Shown: positions 2,454 through 27,980 of the stretch, piece by piece
Layout of the letters: every line of letters begins with the position of its first letter
Position numbering within the stretch: the first letter of the stretch is position 1
Source: a virus
DNA length: 30,631 bases
IMG/VR virus record: IMGVR_UViG_3300027833_001225
Span: 1-30,631 of that record
Reading direction: 5' to 3' (one strand)
Made by a program: the position numbers and the translations under genes
Notes under the pieces: generated by a model
Seen by the model: only the letters and a program-made list of their open reading frames with translations
The model's database searches: none
What the model was told of the DNA's origin: nothing

Positions 2454-2563
2454 TTATACAAGGGTACATAATGTTTGGAATTCTTATCGGTGTTAATACA
2501 GCAGTGTATGTAATGATACAGATGTTTTTCGAAGGACACGAAGCATTTACAAATCTACAGTAA
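2450..2563 (+). CDS. Tiny membrane peptide (37 aa)
   Basis: ATG at 2450 overlaps the lipoprotein stop as ATGA, a typical coupling signal. The 37-residue product has a hydrophobic core (about residues 7-26, from IMFGILIGV to MIQMFF) and a short polar tail. Its 3' end overlaps the convergent gene on the minus strand by nine bases. No family is recognised. It may be the third member of the oxygenase unit, or a chance open frame; its position is the main support. Confidence 0.4.
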   Translation: MIIQGYIMFGILIGVNTAVYVMIQMFFEGHEAFTNLQ

Positions 2564-2791
2564 TTCGTTGTTTCCGCTAGAACCTGATTTGGCTTGATTA
2601 TATTTATTGAGTGTTTTAATTAGCAGGTCTCTATCCATAGGTGGAATAAACCATGCTTCGGACCATGAAACTGCACCTTCACTGTATATTACTAATTCAG
2701 CGATATTTTTGTTTAGGGCAGTTTGATCATCTTTGAGCTTACCTAGGTACGCCACTACGTCCGCTGGTTCAGACTGTGCTAGGAAGCTGTG
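2555..2791 (-). CDS. -1 frame extension of the gp26-type gene
   Basis: The frame is open from inside the 3' end of the upstream gp26-type gene to a TAG at 2555. Read as a -1 frameshift product it adds 78 residues beginning HSFLAQSEPADVV and continuing into AYLGKLKDDQTALNKN. The only candidate initiation codon is a GTG at 2755 with no good ribosome site. A start there would give 66 aa. The frame stays open across the gp26 stop and back to the slippery site, as expected for a frameshift extension. The sequence is rich in polar helix-forming residues, with conserved-looking WSEAWFIPP. The layout resembles the frameshifted tail assembly chaperones (lambda G/GT, P2 E/E') of other tailed phages. 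It could also be a separate small gene. Confidence 0.65.
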   Translation of the reverse strand, partial: HSFLAQSEPADVVAYLGKLKDDQTALNKNIAELVIYSEGAVSWSEAWFIPPMDRDLLIKTLNKYNQAKSGSSGNNELL

Positions 2792-2797
2792 AAAAAA
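2736..2797 (-). promoter_or_regulatory. Programmed -1 frameshift signal
   Basis: On the minus strand the gp26 frame reads through T TTT TTC (2797-2791), a classic X XXY YYZ heptamer. The gp26 stop TAG lies ten bases further on (2781-2779). The next bases form a stem in which AGCTTCCTAG (2788-2779) pairs with CTAGG-T-AAGCT (2746-2736): ten base pairs with one bulged base. The spacer is only about two bases, shorter than usual, but outer pairs could open. After slippage both Phe codons re-pair and reading enters the open -1 frame. Confidence 0.65.
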
Positions 2798-3648
2798 TTT
2801 ACAGGATCAAAGTTTACACGACTTTCGAACACTACTGGTTCGCCTGCATCGTCTGTACATTTCTCACACTGTAGTTTCATCTCATGATTAATACCAATGG
2901 AATTCAATTGAGAAATTTGTTCTTCGATCTTCTTACCTACTTTACCTTCGGCATTATCTAAAAACTCTGAGATATGCTTTCTATCTGTTACACTTTGCTT
3001 CTCGCCTTCTTCATCGGTGTAACCAATACTAGAAATACTATCAACAATTAAACTAAAGTTTAAATCTGCAATTTGTTTAAAGTTATCATTAAACAATCTT
3101 AATCTTTCCATTTCATCAGATACTTCTGCTAATGCTTGTAAACTTCTAGTGCTTTGGAAATTAGTAATACCTGCTTGGATTGTGCTGGCATAAGTGAACG
3201 GACGAACTTTAATTTCTAGACCTTCATGCTCTACTGTGTATGATTTTTCTAGAACACCCATGGAGCCAATTGCTTGTTCAACACTAGCAACACCTTGTTG
3301 ATCTTCTTTACACGTCGGACATGGCGCAGTTACTTCTACTTCGTCTCCGTAAGTAGCACCCTGTACAGCAACTAGTAATACGTCAATATCACTGCTTAAC
3401 ATTGCTCTAGCATTCTTTACGTTAGGTACGCAACTTTGAATAACCTGTGCTACAGCTTCGCCGTTTAATAACGCATCAGGGTTTTTCATAATCATTTCGT
3501 CTTTTGCTGTCATTGCAAAGACAGGAAGTTCTAGCGTTTCGGGCATCTCTACTACTGCCGACTCATAAAATTTGCCAGCACTTGGAATAGGTGCAAACAA
3601 TTTTGGAGCTCTAAAATGCGAACTTAATGGATTGTGTTTGTTTGTCAT
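2779..3648 (-). CDS. 26: T4 gp26-type baseplate/tail assembly protein
   Basis: A 289-aa protein of the T4 baseplate hub gp26 type. Two CxxC pairs, CPTC (about residue 110) and CEKC (about 260), can form a zinc ribbon. The middle has the long helical stretch typical of the family (ITNFQSTRSLQALAEV then FNDNFKQIADLNFSLIVDSI). T4 gp26 takes part in assembly of the baseplate hub. Here the gene is alone on the minus strand, divergent from the 2OG oxygenase gene, with a late promoter at 3706-3713. Its 3' end carries a slippery site that would extend about 286 residues by 78 in the -1 frame, giving a 364-aa product. This protein is longer than T4 gp26 (about 208 aa). Confidence 0.75.
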   Translation of the reverse strand: MTNKHNPLSSHFRAPKLFAPIPSAGKFYESAVVEMPETLELPVFAMTAKDEMIMKNPDALLNGEAVAQVIQSCVPNVKNARAMLSSDIDVLLVAVQGATYGDEVEVTAPCPTCKEDQQGVASVEQAIGSMGVLEKSYTVEHEGLEIKVRPFTYASTIQAGITNFQSTRSLQALAEVSDEMERLRLFNDNFKQIADLNFSLIVDSISSIGYTDEEGEKQSVTDRKHISEFLDNAEGKVGKKIEEQISQLNSIGINHEMKLQCEKCTDDAGEPVVFESRVNFDPVNFFTAS

Positions 3649-4908: not shown

Positions 4909-7900
4909 ATGTCAAGGGTACAACTGCCGGATGGCGGAGAAGCAATAATTGCAGATTTTGCACTAGAAAGCACAGCTCAGATGATGCTGGCGCAACTAGC
5001 ACAACTCAATGGCAATAAAGACTGGAAACTGTTAGTTGACCACGCTAAAAATAATGCAAAAGATCAAGAAACATTCCACAAATCCACACTCGAACATCAG
5101 AAAAAACTACTAGGCGAATTTGAGGATTTAGCTGACGAAGTTGAAAAGAGTAATAAAAAAGGAACTCCCCTACCGGCACCCACAGTTGGCAATGCTGGAC
5201 CCGGGCCTGCTCAAATAGGTAAAGCGGCAGATGGTGCCGCAGCTTCACTAGACAGTTTTAACAAAGGTGCTGCTAGGGGCGAAAAAATCTTTGCTGGCGT
5301 ATATGGTGCAACTGCATCAGCAATCAAAGGTATAGCAACGTCTATTGTAGTCTACGGTGGAATACTTATAGACACATTTACTGGTTTAGGTGATGAACTA
5401 AATGAGATGACAAAAGTTGGTGTAGGATTCACCGACAGTGTAGGCCAAGGTGGCATGAGTGCCACAAGTGCTATGATGTCATTGAGTAGCATGGGTATAG
5501 ATGCTGCAGGCACATTAAAGAACTTGAGTGGTGTTGTTCAAACAATGAGCAAGAAATCGTTCACAGAATTTACAGGTGCATTCATGGACGCAACTAACAG
5601 TGGTGTAGAGCTAGGCATGAGTCTAGACGACAGTGTTGAGCGTATGGGTGCAGAATTAAGAAAAAGGCAAGCAATGGGTGTTGCCGACGGCATGAATCAA
5701 GCCAGGATGAATGCACAAATTACCAAGACTATCAAGACACAACAAAAATATGCAAGTGTACTTGGTGAGAGTGTCGACGAGATAGTTAATTTTACAGACA
5801 GTTTAATACAGCAAACACCAGTACTTACTTCTAGTTTATTAAGGATGGACAGAGAATTAAGAGGTAAAGTTATATCAGGTATAACAGACTTTGCTGGCAC
5901 TATGAGAGCTATGGGCGGAGAAGCCGGTGGTGACATAGCGGCTGCTATGACAGAGGCTGCTGCAAGTGGACAATTAGGATTTAGTCAATCCATGGTTGGG
6001 TATGTTACAGCATTACCTAGTTTACAAGGCCCAATGAATAATTATATTGAGGCAATTAAGAATGGCACACTGAGTCAAGAAGATGCTGAGCAAATGGCAC
6101 TAGACATGACTTCACAGTTGGGTAATCTCAGTAAAGCAGAAAAAGATAGAATATTCTTGCTAGACAGAGCTGGCAATGCACAGGCTGCTAGTATGGCAAA
6201 GGCTATTACACAGTTCGAAGCATCTGCTAAAAAGTTAAAAGACCTAGGTCCAGGCTTAGAAATGGAAGGTGTGCAAAAAGGTTCCAACACATTAGCAAAA
6301 ATAATGAAGCAGATCACTGGTTCGTTTGAAGGTATAAAAACTGGCTTCCTACAAGGATTTGGTAATATCACCGACGGCGGCAAAGGGTTAAGCGATACTT
6401 TCGAAAAAATGAAAAAGACCGTTATGACTTCTATTAGTATAGCAATGAAGAAATTTGGTTTAGTCGGCGGCGTATTTGATGAAATGTCCGGCGCTGGAAT
6501 TAGTTTAGGCGAACAGTTAGGTAAAAAATTACCTGGCATGTTAGAAACGTTTGCAGAATATGTAGGCATGGCTATAGAAGCGTTACCGGGTATTTGGGAA
6601 GGTATTAAAAGTTTTATAAATGTTATGAAGACAGTTGGTAGCATACTAGGTGTAGTTATGAAAATAGTCTCCGGTGCTGTTACTATAGCAACTAATGCTT
6701 TCAATGCACTCTTCTCGCCTATTGATGCAGTAGCAAGTATATTTACTAAAGTTGATGGCGAAACTACAGGCTTCCTAGCAACACTTGGTAAACTAGCAGG
6801 TCTTACAGGATTAGTAGTACTTGGATTTAAAGCAGTAAGCGGTGTGCTAGGCCTCTTTGGTAAATCAATGCCAGCAATGTTTGCTAACATGGGCAAGTCT
6901 TTAATGTCCGGTGCTAAGAACATGATGGGCAAAGTCACAGGTGGTCTAAGCAAAGCAACAGGTGGAAAACTTGACGGCTTATTTGGTAAAGCCAAAGACA
7001 AGATAGCAGGCAAATCAAAAGAAATGGACATGGGCTCAAAAGCCATGGACACTGCAAGTAAGAAATCCAAGAGCTTTACAAAAACATTATCAACAGGCAT
7101 GAAAGATATATCCAAAGGTATATCTAGTACGCTAACAAATTTAAGCAAAGGTATTAGCAACTCTGTAAGCAATATTGCAACAGGCATACAAAAAGGTATA
7201 AGTGCATTATCAAAAGGTATTGCAGACGCAGGTAAAGGTATTGGAGCAGGCATTGGCGGCTTATTAAAAGGAACATTAACAGGTTTAGGGCAAGGTTTAA
7301 AAGTATTAGGTGATCCTAAAGCATTACTAGGCACAGTAGTACTAGCGGCACTAGGTGGTGCAATGTTTATTGCAGGTAAAGCATTCCAGCAGTTTGCAGA
7401 TATTAATTGGGCAGGTGTTGGCGCAGGAGCATTAGCATTAGGTGTATTAGGTGTAGCGGCAGCGTTAATAGCACCTATATCACCATTATTAATCACAGGT
7501 GCAGTAGCAATTGGTGCATTAGGCTTAGCACTTGTTCCGTTTGCTTATGCTGTAAGTTTAGCGGCACCAGCAATGGTTGAGCTAATGGGCAGCTTTAAAC
7601 TGCTCAACGAAGTTGATCCTAAAAATGTATTATTGTTAGGCCCAGCACTAGTATCACTAGCAGCCGGTATGGCTGCATTTAGTGCAGGTGGGTTAGTAGG
7701 CGGCATACTAGATGGATTAGGCAGTTTGCTTGGGCAAGACTCGCCATTTGATAAACTTGCTAAAATAGGAGCAGCAGCTCCGGCAATTAATGAAATGACA
7801 TCAAACATGGGTTCGTTTGGTACCACAGTAGAAACATTCAATGATGCAATGGAACAATTAGATGGCGCAGCTATTAAAGGTTCGTTTGAGACAATGGCAG

Positions 7901-8763
7901 AAGGCATTGACACACTAAATGCATCGATGGCTGAGATTAGTCTTGTTTCAATAATGAAAATGGCTGCTATGAAGTCATTTGGTCCTATAGCAGAAGAGCC
8001 AGCAACAGAGCCAGCAGAGCCAACCGAAGCTGAGAAGCCTAAACTTACAGACAAAGATTATGTAATGGCACGAGCAGGCGACCCAGACGCACAGGCTAGA
8101 GTTGATGCAGGCCAGACGCAGGAACAAAAAGATGAAAGAGCTAAATTTGATAAGTCTATACCAGGGCAAATACTAGCCGACACAGGCACAGACGAGAATC
8201 CATTCGCAGTGCCATTAGAGCAAGCAAAGGAATCATTAAATACAGCAATAGCGGCACAGGCAGCAGGCCTCAGGGAAGGCGTTGACTGGATAGATCAAAT
8301 GAATCTAGATAATAGTGTTAAATGGGCACAAATGGATTTAGATGACGCAACTAAGCTAGACAAAGAAGCAGCAACGAAAAAAGATAACAGTGCAGAAATA
8401 AAAACACCAGAAAAATCAAAGATTGATAGATCGCCTGCAGGTAGAGCTCAAAGACGTCAAGATCAGTTGAACAAGAAGAAGGAACAACTCCCAGAAGGTC
8501 AAACCTCAGCCACATTTGTTAACGGAAAACCAGTAAAACCAGTAGCAGCCAAGACTAATCAACCAGCACAGGCAAATGTAGCAATGGCTGCAGAAACTCC
8601 TAAAGATGCTAACAAGAAGGCTGCAGAAGGCACTGACGATTCTAGCACTAAGACAGAATCAAATAAAGAATTGTTCGAACGTATGGTTAAAAATCAAGAA
8701 CAAACTAACAAACTACTCAAATCAGGCAACAGACTTACTAGCGATCTAAGCGACGATTTCTAA
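4909..8763 (+). CDS. Tail tape-measure-like protein
   Basis: A 1284-aa protein. The N-terminal 90 residues are helical and charged. A predicted membrane-like segment lies near 139-157 and further hydrophobic stretches near 560-640. A Lys/Gly/Ser-rich repetitive section follows (about 660-790, with repeats such as KGIS and SKGI), then a very hydrophobic Ala/Gly/Leu block (about 800-910). The C-terminal 280 residues are polar, rich in Glu, Lys and Ala. This long helical and hydrophobic make-up is typical of tail tape-measure proteins, which set tail length and enter the host envelope. It occupies the neighbourhood of the gp26-type chaperone candidate. T4's own counterpart is gp29; direct homology is not visible by eye. 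The ATG follows an AGAGAGGA box. Confidence 0.6.
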   Translation: MSRVQLPDGGEAIIADFALESTAQMMLAQLAQLNGNKDWKLLVDHAKNNAKDQETFHKSTLEHQKKLLGEFEDLADEVEKSNKKGTPLPAPTVGNAGPGPAQIGKAADGAAASLDSFNKGAARGEKIFAGVYGATASAIKGIATSIVVYGGILIDTFTGLGDELNEMTKVGVGFTDSVGQGGMSATSAMMSLSSMGIDAAGTLKNLSGVVQTMSKKSFTEFTGAFMDATNSGVELGMSLDDSVERMGAELRKRQAMGVADGMNQARMNAQITKTIKTQQKYASVLGESVDEIVNFTDSLIQQTPVLTSSLLRMDRELRGKVISGITDFAGTMRAMGGEAGGDIAAAMTEAAASGQLGFSQSMVGYVTALPSLQGPMNNYIEAIKNGTLSQEDAEQMALDMTSQLGNLSKAEKDRIFLLDRAGNAQAASMAKAITQFEASAKKLKDLGPGLEMEGVQKGSNTLAKIMKQITGSFEGIKTGFLQGFGNITDGGKGLSDTFEKMKKTVMTSISIAMKKFGLVGGVFDEMSGAGISLGEQLGKKLPGMLETFAEYVGMAIEALPGIWEGIKSFINVMKTVGSILGVVMKIVSGAVTIATNAFNALFSPIDAVASIFTKVDGETTGFLATLGKLAGLTGLVVLGFKAVSGVLGLFGKSMPAMFANMGKSLMSGAKNMMGKVTGGLSKATGGKLDGLFGKAKDKIAGKSKEMDMGSKAMDTASKKSKSFTKTLSTGMKDISKGISSTLTNLSKGISNSVSNIATGIQKGISALSKGIADAGKGIGAGIGGLLKGTLTGLGQGLKVLGDPKALLGTVVLAALGGAMFIAGKAFQQFADINWAGVGAGALALGVLGVAAALIAPISPLLITGAVAIGALGLALVPFAYAVSLAAPAMVELMGSFKLLNEVDPKNVLLLGPALVSLAAGMAAFSAGGLVGGILDGLGSLLGQDSPFDKLAKIGAAAPAINEMTSNMGSFGTTVETFNDAMEQLDGAAIKGSFETMAEGIDTLNASMAEISLVSIMKMAAMKSFGPIAEEPATEPAEPTEAEKPKLTDKDYVMARAGDPDAQARVDAGQTQEQKDERAKFDKSIPGQILADTGTDENPFAVPLEQAKESLNTAIAAQAAGLREGVDWIDQMNLDNSVKWAQMDLDDATKLDKEAATKKDNSAEIKTPEKSKIDRSPAGRAQRRQDQLNKKKEQLPEGQTSATFVNGKPVKPVAAKTNQPAQANVAMAAETPKDANKKAAEGTDDSSTKTESNKELFERMVKNQEQTNKLLKSGNRLTSDLSDDF

Positions 8764-8838: not shown

Positions 8839-10560
8839 ATGAGTTGGCGCAAACATTTTACACCCTTTGACAATTCGGGTTTACCTTTAAACATTCAGTC
8901 AGGTGCGGATAAAAATGACGGCTCGTTCGGTGCAGCCGCAACAAGTAGATTTAATAGTTGGTTACCAGAAGTATACGCAGGAAGTCCTAATAGACTTATG
9001 CGTTATGTGCAGTATGATCAAATGGATTCGGATCTAGAAGTAAATGCCGCACTAGATACTATTGCAGAATTTGGCACACAAGAAAACGAGTACTCGGGTT
9101 TACCGTTTACTATTGACTTCTTATCGTCACCAAGTGATACAGAAGCAAAAATCATAGATAAAACATTACATAGTTGGGTTAGACTTAACAAGTTACACAA
9201 ACGTGCATTTAGAATGTTCCGTAGTACTTGTAAGTATGGCGATCAGTTTTTTATTAGAGATCCAGAAACATACGAATTGTACTGGGTTGATCCTGCAAAC
9301 ATTGAAAAGGTTGTTGTTAACGAAAGTGAAGGCAAAAAGATAGAGCAATACTTTATCAAAAACCTAGAAGCAAACTTTGCAGAGCAAGTAGCAACAAACG
9401 CAAGTGGACTACATGCAAGACCATATGGTAGTGGACAAGGCCTAACAGGCATAATGAGCCCTACTAATACAGTAAGCAACAATTACTTAACAGGATCAGT
9501 AGATGGTGCAGGCGAAGGCGTACCAGTTGATGCTAAACATGTTGTGCATGTTAGTTTAACAGAAGGCATGGATCATTCATGGCCTTTCGGCGTAAGCATA
9601 CTAGAACCAATTTTTAAAGTGTTCAAGCAGAAAGAATTGCTAGAAGACAGTATTATCATTTATCGTGTACACAGAGCACCTGAAAGACGTGTGTTCTTTA
9701 TTGACGTAGGTAATATGCCAGCCCACAAAGCACAGCAGTACTTAGAACGTGTAAAATACGAAGTACAGCAAAAACGTGTACCTAACAGCAAGGGCGATGG
9801 TAGCAGTGTAACAGACAGTGCATACAATCCAATGAGTATGTTAGAAGATTACTTCTTTGCACAAACAGCAGACGGACGTGGTTCTAAAGTTGATACACTA
9901 CCGGGTGGTGAGAACTTAGGCCAAATAGACGACCTTAGATACTTTAATAACAAACTATTACGTGGTTTGCGTATTCCTGCTAGTTATTTGCCAACAGGAC
10001 CAGACGATGGAAGTGCTACTTACAACGATGGCAAAGTAGGTGTTGCATACATTCAAGAATATAGATTTGCAAAGTATGTTGAAAGACTGCAAAAGCAAGT
10101 ACAAGAAGATTTAGATAGAGAATTTAAACTGTTCCTAAAATACAAAGGCATAGATATTGATAACAGCACATTTAGAATGTTGTTTAACAAGCCAATGAAC
10201 TTTAGTAGTTACAGAGAATTACAACTTAATACAGAACGTGCTCAGATGTTTAATCAAGTTGCAAACTTACCATACATGAGTAAGCGATTCGCTTTACAGA
10301 AGTATATGGGTTTAAGCGACAACGAAATGAAGCAAAACGAAGAGCAGTGGCGTGAAGAGAACGATTATCAGAAATATCAAGATAATGAAAAAGCAGCCGC
10401 ACTTAAGAACATAGGTATTAGACCAGAACCTAATGCCGCAGTTGATTTAGACGCAGAACCAGACCTTTCTGGGCTTGAAGATCCGACATTAGGCGGAGAA
10501 GACATAAATACAACTATAGACAATACAGTTCCACCAGCAGAAGGCGAGGGTTTAGTATAA
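8839..10560 (+). CDS. 20: Portal vertex protein gp20
   Basis: A 573-aa protein, slightly longer than T4 gp20 (524 aa). Recognisable portal features include the N-terminal stretch around NSWLPEVYAGSPNRLMRY, the DLEVNAALDTIAEFGTQ helix, the SILEPIFKVFKQKELLEDS segment, VHRAPERRVFFIDVGNMP, and RIPASYLPTGPDDG. The portal dodecamer forms the DNA entry vertex of the head and the platform for the packaging motor. It heads the head-assembly operon in the T4 order. Its stop overlaps the next start as TAATG. Confidence 0.93.
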   Translation: MSWRKHFTPFDNSGLPLNIQSGADKNDGSFGAAATSRFNSWLPEVYAGSPNRLMRYVQYDQMDSDLEVNAALDTIAEFGTQENEYSGLPFTIDFLSSPSDTEAKIIDKTLHSWVRLNKLHKRAFRMFRSTCKYGDQFFIRDPETYELYWVDPANIEKVVVNESEGKKIEQYFIKNLEANFAEQVATNASGLHARPYGSGQGLTGIMSPTNTVSNNYLTGSVDGAGEGVPVDAKHVVHVSLTEGMDHSWPFGVSILEPIFKVFKQKELLEDSIIIYRVHRAPERRVFFIDVGNMPAHKAQQYLERVKYEVQQKRVPNSKGDGSSVTDSAYNPMSMLEDYFFAQTADGRGSKVDTLPGGENLGQIDDLRYFNNKLLRGLRIPASYLPTGPDDGSATYNDGKVGVAYIQEYRFAKYVERLQKQVQEDLDREFKLFLKYKGIDIDNSTFRMLFNKPMNFSSYRELQLNTERAQMFNQVANLPYMSKRFALQKYMGLSDNEMKQNEEQWREENDYQKYQDNEKAAALKNIGIRPEPNAAVDLDAEPDLSGLEDPTLGGEDINTTIDNTVPPAEGEGLV

Positions 10561-14836: not shown

Positions 14837-15484
14837 ATGAAAACTTTATTCAATATAGAGAATGGATTCAAAGCACTAGTAATTATACTATTGTCGATGA
14901 TCGCATTCAATGCCGATGCGGCAAAATGGAGCGGAGAAGCAGGTTATGCAAATGACTATGTATTCCGTGGAATATCTCAAACTCAAGGCGCAAGTTCTGC
15001 TTTCGGATCTATTGATTTAGATTTAGAGAACGGTATTAATGCTGGTGTTTGGGTAGGTCAAGTAGACTTTTCTGGTAGCGATGCTAGTGAAGAAATCTAC
15101 TCTTACATTTCATATAGCAAAACTTTAAGTGATGCTGTATCTGTAAGCGTAGGCTACGGTGATTACACATACGCAGGAGATTCAAGTTTAAATGGATCCG
15201 AGCAGTATATTTCCGTTAATGTAAAAGACTTCGGTCTTACACATGTAATGGGTAATGACACCTACAACGATTATACAAGACTAAGTTATACTGGTTTTGA
15301 TATTGTTGATATAGCATATGGCATGCAAGACGGTGTTGGAGACAATTTAATGTTTTTTAGATCTTTTGATTTACCTTTTGGTGGATTAGAAGGTTCAGTA
15401 GCATATATTGACTTCACTGCTGATGACAGCAGTTTACTACAGGACGAAGACCAGTTTGTCTTTGCTGTAAGTAAATCATTCTAA
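14837..15484 (+). CDS. Outer-membrane porin-like protein (TorF/Gcw_chp family)
   Basis: A 215-aa protein with a signal peptide ending ...MIAFNADA, then the mature start AKWSGEAGYANDYVFRGISQT, the hallmark of the Gcw_chp/TorF putative porin family. Alternating beta-strand sequence runs to a C-terminal Phe (VFAVSKSF), the usual signal for the outer-membrane assembly machinery. An AGGAGG site lies 6 bp before the ATG. The gene stands alone between two strong terminators with its own sigma-70 promoter, a cassette layout typical of a moron. A role in changing the host surface (superinfection exclusion, receptor masking, nutrient uptake) is inference. Confidence 0.8.
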   Translation: MKTLFNIENGFKALVIILLSMIAFNADAAKWSGEAGYANDYVFRGISQTQGASSAFGSIDLDLENGINAGVWVGQVDFSGSDASEEIYSYISYSKTLSDAVSVSVGYGDYTYAGDSSLNGSEQYISVNVKDFGLTHVMGNDTYNDYTRLSYTGFDIVDIAYGMQDGVGDNLMFFRSFDLPFGGLEGSVAYIDFTADDSSLLQDEDQFVFAVSKSF

Positions 15485-26207: not shown

Positions 26208-26510
26208 ATGGAAGAGATTGTCAACGCAATAAACGACTATGGATTCCCAGTAGTAATGAGTGTTGGCCTAGGATATTTTGTGTATTACATTTGGTGGTTT
26301 ATTGGAGAAAAGATAGACCCAGCATTAGAAGAAATGCACATGGCTTTAATTAAAGTAATAGATAAAACTCGCATGCTAGATCAAGACTTGATCAGACTAC
26401 AACAAAAAGTAAATGTCGTATTAGAATATAAAGCAAAAGAACAAATTATTAAGGACGCACAGAACACAGAGCTTTTAAAAAACATAGAGGAAGGATTAAC
26501 ACATGATTGA
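26208..26510 (+). CDS. Second small membrane-anchored coiled-coil protein
   Basis: A 100-aa protein with a membrane segment at about residues 13-33 (FPVVMSVGLGYFVYYIWWFIG), followed by a long charged helix. It resembles the 98-aa protein in length, an M-x-EI start, a G-x-P before the membrane segment and a helical tail. It overlaps the csgF start by eight bases (ATGATTGA). It may assist export, form a holin-like pore or anchor the curli apparatus to the inner membrane; none of these can be chosen from sequence. Confidence 0.6.
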   Translation: MEEIVNAINDYGFPVVMSVGLGYFVYYIWWFIGEKIDPALEEMHMALIKVIDKTRMLDQDLIRLQQKVNVVLEYKAKEQIIKDAQNTELLKNIEEGLTHD

Positions 26511-27027
26511 TAACAAACACAAAGATACACCTTTACTAGTTTTAGGTTATATCTTGTTAGGTATGATAGTACTGCTATCTACTACCGCAACTGCAGATTC
26601 ATTAACGCACAAATTTAAGAATCCTAGTTTTAGTGGTATTGGAACTGGAGCACATTACCTAACGATAGAAAATCAAGAAAGAACTCGTAGGCAAAAGATC
26701 AAAGACGATATTGAATCAGCTTTAAAGCAAGCAGAACGAGAAGACTCGAACAGCACAATTAACAAATTCATTAGAAATTTAGAGAGCAGAATATACGCCC
26801 AAATCTCTAAGGGATTAGTTGACAGCATGTTTTGTGATCCAGCTACTGTAGTAGAGTGTACGGGTTCAGACTCAGGCGACTTTACAATTGAAGGTAATAA
26901 TGTAAGTTACCAAATAGTTATATCTGACGATGGATTAGAAGTAATGAGACTTACTATTGTTTCTCCAGACGGCACAATAACTGAGATAGAGATACCGATC
27001 GGCATCGGCAGCATTGGCGGCGGGTAA
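26503..27027 (+). CDS. csgF: CsgF-like curli assembly protein
   Basis: A 174-aa protein with an N-terminal signal/anchor (LLVLGYILLGMIVLLSTTATA). The predicted mature start DSLTHKFKNPSFSG matches the CsgF signature (E. coli FQFRNPNFGG), the segment that plugs into the CsgG pore. The C-terminal beta part (YQIVISDDGLEVMRLTIVSPDG) also fits CsgF. In curli systems CsgF couples the secretion pore to nucleation of the fibre. The middle is longer than in E. coli CsgF (138 aa) and includes a charged helix. The residue matching E. coli N17 is Thr or a gap. It directly precedes csgG with TAATG overlap. Confidence 0.85.
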   Translation: MIDNKHKDTPLLVLGYILLGMIVLLSTTATADSLTHKFKNPSFSGIGTGAHYLTIENQERTRRQKIKDDIESALKQAEREDSNSTINKFIRNLESRIYAQISKGLVDSMFCDPATVVECTGSDSGDFTIEGNNVSYQIVISDDGLEVMRLTIVSPDGTITEIEIPIGIGSIGGG

Positions 27028-27980
27028 TGATGAAGTATTTAGGAATCGCACTTCTATGTGTAGGCTTCTTGTCAGGCTGTGCAAGCATGGCTCTACCTGG
27101 CGACAAAAACTGCACCACTGATTTCCTCCAATGCATCGAAGAACCAAAAGAAGTAGAATTACCTACATTCAAAAAATTACGACAGTTACCACCGGCTGAA
27201 ACAAGACCGATTGTAGCAGTTTATCAATTTGCCGACTTAACTGGACAACGTTTAAGTTCTGGCGGAGCGGCTAGTTTTAGCACAGCCGTAACACAAGGTG
27301 CTAAAGCCTTACTAATAGACGCACTCAAAGCAGCAGGCGCTGATTCAGACCCGCAGGGTACTTGGTTCAGAGTTGTTGAAAGAGGTCTGGGTCTAGACAA
27401 TCTTGTCCGAGAGCGACAAATAATTCGTAGCACACGTGATAGTTATGCTACTGAGAAAGCTCCGCCACAAGATGTACAACCATTATTATTTGCAGGAGTG
27501 ATACTAGAGGGTGGCGTTATTGGCTACGACTCTAATATTGAGACTGGCGGTAACGGTGCTCGATACCTAGGTATTGGCACAACTAATGAATATAGGCGTG
27601 ACAGTGTTGTAGTTTCGCTTAGAGCAGTTAGTGTACTTACTGGCGAAGTGATATTAAACGTACAGACATACAAAACTATTCTCAGTGTTGGGATGGGTGG
27701 TGACGTATTTAAATTCCTTGATATGGATACGCGACTACTTGAAATTGAGAGTGGTATGACAGAGAATGAAAGTGTAACTTGGGGTGTTAGATCAGCGATC
27801 GAAGCAGCCGTTTATGCTCTCATCGAACAAGGAGATGAAAGAGGTTTCTGGAAAATAAACTACCCATTAGAGTTGGGTAACACTACAACAGGTACTATCG
27901 ACGGTACTGACACAGATTTAGAAACGGGTAATGAGCCCTCTGATAGCCAATTGGCTTTAGAGGATAATGAGAATGATTAA
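27027..27980 (+). CDS. csgG: CsgG-like curli secretion pore lipoprotein
   Basis: A 317-aa protein with a lipobox LSGC at residues 15-18. CsgG landmarks include VAVYQFADLTGQ, FSTAVTQGAKALLIDAL, the ERGLGLDNLVRERQIIR helix, the GGVIGYDSNIETGGNGARYLGIG strand region, TGEVILNVQTYKTILS and the SAIEAAVYALIEQGDERGFW helix. CsgG forms the nonameric outer-membrane channel for curlin export. The constriction loop differs from E. coli: the YPASNF motif is replaced by roughly GGAASF, keeping Phe56 but not Tyr51 or Asn55. The last 35 residues are an acidic Thr/Asp/Glu tail. ATG at 27030 is an equally good start. Confidence 0.92.
   Translation: MMKYLGIALLCVGFLSGCASMALPGDKNCTTDFLQCIEEPKEVELPTFKKLRQLPPAETRPIVAVYQFADLTGQRLSSGGAASFSTAVTQGAKALLIDALKAAGADSDPQGTWFRVVERGLGLDNLVRERQIIRSTRDSYATEKAPPQDVQPLLFAGVILEGGVIGYDSNIETGGNGARYLGIGTTNEYRRDSVVVSLRAVSVLTGEVILNVQTYKTILSVGMGGDVFKFLDMDTRLLEIESGMTENESVTWGVRSAIEAAVYALIEQGDERGFWKINYPLELGNTTTGTIDGTDTDLETGNEPSDSQLALEDNEND

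Follow-up and report, generated by a model that had tools for sequence, protein, structure and literature searches.

We analysed a 30,631-nt stretch of viral DNA (the window; IMG/VR virus record IMGVR_UViG_3300027833_001225, positions 1 to 30,631) carrying a minus-strand gene of the T4 gp26 family together with T4-type portal, prohead protease and major capsid genes. A likely tape-measure gene adjoins the portal gene and is divergent from the gp26-type gene (Table 1). The order gp26, large protein, portal was also found in RaK2, CBB, 121Q, PA5oct and Phosso. Elsewhere in the window we observed a SegE-type GIY-YIG endonuclease at the left edge (1-402; PF19835, E 5.8e-32); a 427-aa open reading frame, an unusual phage cargo, with a weak N-terminal cytochrome c match (1025-2308; E 0.007) and no PHROG match; a 215-aa protein adjoining the capsid gene that matches PF09694 Gcw_chp, a bacterial family of unknown function (14837-15484; E 4.4e-11); and, at 26503-27980, adjoining genes matching CsgF (E 3.3e-12) and CsgG (E 5.8e-45), which are curli secretion parts in a phage contig. 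Rfam and tRNA scans of the window returned no matches.

By its sequence, the gene is a homologue of T4 gp26. Its product matched PF12322 (T4_baseplate; E 6.7e-18, with 65.6 bits passing the curated cut-off of 24.5), PHROG 150 (baseplate hub; E 4.9e-19) and, by hhalign, the T4 gp26 family (E 6.9e-7). The protein has two CxxC pairs and a C-terminal end of VNFDPVNFFTAS, and the 3' end of the gene reads GTA AAT TTT TTC ACA GCT TCC TAG, within which two heptamers overlap. The -1 frame is open from about 25 nt ahead of the zero-frame stop, just before the T run, and its helical product would be the C-terminal, T-like domain of a putative long form.

Table 1 Features of the gp26-type locus in the window
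Feature	Positions	Strand	Details
Zero-frame gene	2779-3648	-	289 aa; short form (G-like, TAC-N); T4 gp26 family
Zero-frame stop, TAG	2779-2781	-	Three sense codons past the heptamer
Candidate slippery heptamer, T TTT TTC	2791-2797	-	In zero-frame phase
Second heptamer, A AAT TTT	2794-2800	-	Overlaps the first; canonical, in phase
-1 frame extension	2558-2797	-	80 codons from the slip (FF included); stop at 2557-2555; sequence FFHSFLAQSEPADVVAYL...
Predicted bulged stem, 10 bp	2736-2788	-	2788-2779 pairs with 2746-2736; one bulge; -17.6 kcal/mol
Likely tape-measure protein	4909-8763	+	1284 aa; PHROG 305 (tail length tape measure), E 3.1e-6
Portal gene	8839-10560		PF07230, E 1.6e-112

A preliminary description of this DNA had pointed to the gene end, the heptamer T TTT TTC, the open -1 frame and the 10-bp stem, and all four were found where it had placed them. 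It had also held that the -1 frame has no good start of its own; near the front of that frame the window has a single start codon, a non-conserved GTG at 2755. Since the window contains 36 in-phase X_XXY_YYZ heptamers among 9042 codon pairs, the heptamer by itself is unremarkable, and a -1 frame of such length stayed open in 135 of 20,000 mononucleotide shuffles.

Conservation of the site and of the -1 frame

An initial search of viral contigs yielded 42 usable loci at 54-92% identity, every one of which (42/42) had a zero-frame stop three sense codons past the site and a homologous -1 frame. A broader search, together with ten isolated jumbo phages that include RaK2, 121Q, CBB, PA5oct and Atu_ph07, enlarged the set to 101 distinct loci. 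The in-phase heptamer, the zero-frame stop close by and the homologous -1 domain were all present in 101/101, and it is on this conservation that the case for frameshifting rests; aligning the site across relatives, a check proposed beforehand, came out in favour of the preliminary description. The heptamer was T_TTT_TTC at 89 loci, T_TTT_TTT at five and A_AAT_TTT alone at seven, and A_AAT_TTT was found as well at 75 of the 94 loci carrying a T heptamer. Seven loci with TTTTTCC have lost T_TTT_TTC and kept A_AAT_TTT; the AACTTTTTTC locus has lost A_AAT_TTT and kept T_TTT_TTC. The zero-frame stop lay 1-11 codons past the heptamer throughout the 101 loci, mostly at 1 or 3, and the -1 frame ran for 71-92 codons where the contig allowed.

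Codon choice around the site was examined in 52 distinct loci whose zero frame ends in [TM]AS and a stop. The overlap Ala codon was invariably GCT (52/52; 28% in the rest of the gene), the overlap Ser codon was TCC in 40 (3.5% elsewhere) and the stop was TAG in 48. The Val codon that provides the first A of A_AAT_TTT was GTA in 52/52, against 42% elsewhere, and was followed by AAT in 51. Where the site encodes Phe-Phe, its first codon was TTT in 94/94, whereas TTC makes up 25% of Phe codons elsewhere. Codon choice of this kind is understandable if ribosomes read the -1 frame, or the heptamer, across the zero-frame stop. Comparison with the seven nearest relatives gave the -1 frame a dN/dS of 0.08-0.21 beyond the stop, where the other two frames contained more than six stops on average. 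The overlap is dual-coding, and purifying selection acts on the -1 frame.

To the ten jumbo genomes we applied a profile of the -1 domain (T-domain) built from the window and IMG/VR metagenomic copies, without the jumbo isolates. It matched all ten (E 1e-10 to 1e-21), always from model position 1 (FF), and found no second copy in them with E below 0.007. PF12322 gave one match in nine of the ten, and in SCTP-2 it was undetected by profile search. With one -1 domain and no second gp26-type gene, the jumbo phages have no detectable fused second gene to supply the long form, unlike T4. The T-domain profile reached no match in T4, cyanophage and Acj9 records; PHROG 634, searched against the jumbo genomes without a positive control, did not find the extension. 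For CBB, the excerpt of the virion mass-spectrometry table that we consulted passes from CBB_247 to CBB_251 (a large neighbour, 29 peptides) with no row for CBB_250, the gp26 homologue; its absence from this excerpt fits the expectation for a chaperone.

Candidate stimulators and the cyanophage relatives

Spacers of 2 nt and 5 nt separate the predicted stem from T TTT TTC and A AAT TTT, respectively, and the stability of the stem was hardly above chance when compared with shuffled sequences (z -0.15 over 96 nt, -1.25 over 61 nt). RNAalifold gave no consensus structure downstream of the site in the window clade, and pairing or compensation in the stem amounted to 77.7%, compared with 77.2% for shuffled partners (87.7% versus 87.4% in a closer subset). 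We rejected the stem as a conserved stimulator on account of the missing consensus fold and of compensation no better than in shuffles. What the preliminary description had read as a frameshift signal is a predicted stem that exists, but without conservation or covariation; it may be active in the window's own subclade, and its role is doubtful. An upstream Shine-Dalgarno-like stimulator was seen in 1/52 loci of the window clade and 0/49 of the other non-cyanophage clades, and on these counts was rejected outside cyanophages.

Upstream Shine-Dalgarno sequences at a spacing near ten bases are a known -1 stimulator, for example in E. coli dnaX. All 48 cyanophage-type relatives carried T_TTT_TTC, and at 34 of 43 distinct cyanophage sites a Shine-Dalgarno-like GGAGG stood exactly 10 nt ahead of it. 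Glu at the GGAGG position was encoded by GAG in 39/43, versus 25% elsewhere. The window and jumbo clades are without this cyanophage-type GGAGG.

The cyanophage arrangement is otherwise like that of the window, with a gp26-family gene followed by a gp51-like C-terminal domain of about 60 codons in the -1 frame. Unlike the window clade, cyanophages offer the short frame an invariant ATG, located immediately after the stop in 48/48 types, from which a short gp51 is annotated, and they usually have the GGAGG upstream of the heptamer. The cyanophage -1 open reading frame matches PHROG 634, which also covers the C-terminal extension of gp51 (147-246). Cyanophage gp51 has been described as shortened to about 20% of normal length and aligning with the C-terminal region only, in a paper whose main text leaves frameshifting unmentioned (Sullivan 2010, PMC3037559).

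Other routes to the second frame

The -1 frame could instead be a separate small gene, translated as a stand-alone protein through translational coupling, with re-initiation at an overlapping or nearby start. Independent starts in relatives, which the preliminary description had named as evidence against its reading, do occur by sequence in a minority: in 12 of the 101 loci an ATG is the first -1-frame start no more than eight codons from the slip (TAATG in 121Q, ATGA in Phosso and Atu_ph07), and all 48 cyanophage types have their invariant ATG. TAATG is found too in the gp26 relative of Pseudomonas phage Cygsa01, which is without a good heptamer, having ATT TTC for TTT TTC; here the heptamer has possibly been lost and a separate start is used. 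No ATG, GTG or TTG occurs within eight codons, however, in 84 of the 101 loci, including the window clade, RaK2, CBB and PA5oct, and in 10/10 jumbo genomes the -1-frame homology starts at FF, upstream of any ATG. In the 12 loci and the cyanophage types with an ATG the heptamer is kept, and none of the ATGs checked (0/13 in the window and jumbo clades, 0/45 in cyanophages) had a Shine-Dalgarno-like sequence at a usable distance; the GGAGG of most cyanophages stands instead ten bases ahead of the heptamer. The codons between heptamer and stop are constrained by the -1 frame. Coupling is in our judgement an unlikely explanation for the locus.

Homopolymer runs bring with them two further sources of a frame break. 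RNA polymerase can slip on such runs, and transcriptional slippage on the T run would give the second frame; we consider this very improbable, as six T (five in the TTTTTCC loci) fall short of typical slippage runs, what is conserved is a codon-phased heptamer whose alternative forms replace each other, and the cyanophage Shine-Dalgarno-like element sits at ribosomal spacing. A six-T run is likewise the classic place for an indel error in sequencing or assembly, in which case the two frames would be one long open reading frame. The identical break and a conserved zero-frame stop were nevertheless seen in 101 + 48 distinct sequences, from independent metagenomes and separately sequenced isolates, and codon constraint shows that both frames are used. 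Sequence number and dual-frame constraint together refute the error in practice.

A putative chaperone pair and its relation to T4 gp26 and gp51

Programmed -1 ribosomal frameshifting accounts best for the locus, and the gp26-type gene very probably encodes a tail assembly chaperone in two forms that arise in this way. We infer both the frameshifting itself and the chaperone function from sequence comparison, the function by analogy with T4 gp26 and gp51, which are listed as hub assembly chaperones (PMC3004832). Most ribosomes would read to the TAG and release the 289-aa short form. Some would shift back by one nucleotide at A_AAT_TTT/T_TTT_TTC as tRNA-Asn/Phe or tRNA-Phe/Phe re-pair; a slip on either heptamer would give the identical junction ...NFFHSFLA..., so that the window fusion is predicted to contain the junction peptide VNFDPVNFFHSFLAQSEPADVVAYLGK where the short form has its VNFDPVNFFTAS end. 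The slipped ribosomes would read 78 codons beyond FF to produce a 364-aa long form. Following this logic, the 289-aa and 364-aa forms would be equivalent to T4 gp26 and gp51, and, if lambda G/GT is a guide, the short domain would coat the tape-measure protein while the helical extension would recruit tail-tube subunits.

The comparative evidence (the site in 101/101 relatives, codon constraint and the -1 domain) supports well what the preliminary description had proposed, namely frameshifting to a G/GT-like chaperone pair. Counting against it are the lack of a conserved stimulatory structure in the window clade, the divergent orientation of gene and tape-measure gene, the weak match to the gp51 C-terminus and the lack of a solved-structure match. 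AlphaFold2 modelled the short form with a pLDDT of 85 and the -1 extension, which is helical, with 86. The short-form model matched predicted structures of gp26-type proteins from other phages (E to 1e-25); structure search of the PDB gave no significant match to the short form or the extension, and the VIA rows of that search were middling, covering mainly one helical stretch. Sequence searches found no solved relatives of the gp26 profile or gp51.

The T4 gp26 and gp51 families matched each other with E 2e-18 by hhalign, over gp51 6-202 and the whole length of gp26, and PF12322 matches both. The -1 domain of the window clade matched the gp51 C-terminus weakly (hhalign, E 0.0018 over 33 columns). 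T4 gp26 and gp51 are like the window in belonging to the PF12322 family and, if the window gene frameshifts, in pairing a short form with a long form that has a C-terminal extension; in T4 (Straboviridae) these are two separate, divergent genes, whereas in the window, the jumbo phages and the cyanophages one gene and its -1 frame would putatively provide both. In an unrooted tree, the sampled T4-type gp26 and gp51 formed one side of a split (100/96) whose other side held every single-gene type.

Frameshifting reportedly produces the lambda G/GT tail assembly chaperones (Levin in 1993 and Xu in 2004 are said to have described it), and the lambda slippery heptamer is G_GGA_AAG, compared with T_TTT_TTC and A_AAT_TTT in the window. 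The two systems are alike in a short protein that ends just past a slippery heptamer, in a -1 extension without a start of its own and in a tail gene context. Between their sequences no relation was detectable; the window gene has significant matches only to PF12322 and PHROG 150. Nor is the lambda gene layout found here; in lambda, G and T immediately precede the tape-measure gene within one operon, whereas the window gene, on the minus strand, is divergent from a plus-strand tape-measure gene. The phage Adele locus (GTTTTT) offers a comparative case, in which -1 frameshifting is argued from sequence comparison for a poly-T site close to where a TAC-N gene ends, with a -1 frame open for more than 200 bp; it belongs to different phage families (Vandenendeviridae/Andersonviridae) and is likened to the window by site layout (PMC12846349).

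The family-level idea that gp26 is a chaperone is not new, although the preliminary description knew of no report for this family. Vladimirov, Gautam and Davidson reportedly identified the gp26/gp51-type tail assembly chaperones of T4-like phages in 2022 (Virology 566:9), in an article whose title is said to argue for a mechanism other than frameshifting. The chaperone genes of that work we take to be gp26 and gp51, which fits the paralogy found here. It is cited in two later papers: in the citing passage of the PRFect paper, for T4-like phages some of which have a short gene and a fused long gene (PMC10885494), and in that of the Adele paper, for the poly-T slippery sites that TAC-N genes of T4-like phages carry (PMC12846349). 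Judged from these passages, the present analysis extends the case to marine and jumbo lineages and adds the tandem site, codon-level evidence and the GGAGG of cyanophages. The word "frameshift" is absent from the jumbo phage papers on CBB, RaK2, Atu_ph07, phAPEC6 and MIJ3.

A broader reading, for and against which we see the balance as even, is that frameshifting is an old and widespread route to the gp26-type pair across marine, jumbo and cyanophage relatives of T4, and that the two-gene gp26/gp51 arrangement of T4 and its near relatives is a later replacement, derived by duplication. The site would then consist of tandem heptamers, either of which suffices, with lineage-specific stimulators such as the cyanophage GGAGG. 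The idea that frameshifting is ancestral draws on the split in the tree between T4-type gp26/gp51 and the single-gene types, in a tree that is unrooted.

For genome annotation, the deposited jumbo genomes miss the -1 domain, which is unannotated in RaK2 and PA5oct, or list it as a separate hypothetical protein from an internal start, as in CBB, 121Q and Phosso. In cyanophages, the short gp51 probably represents a frameshift extension. Frameshifting on the gp26 family is very probably in use in many T4-related lineages, which makes the two-gene layout of T4 directly comparable with the frameshift layout.
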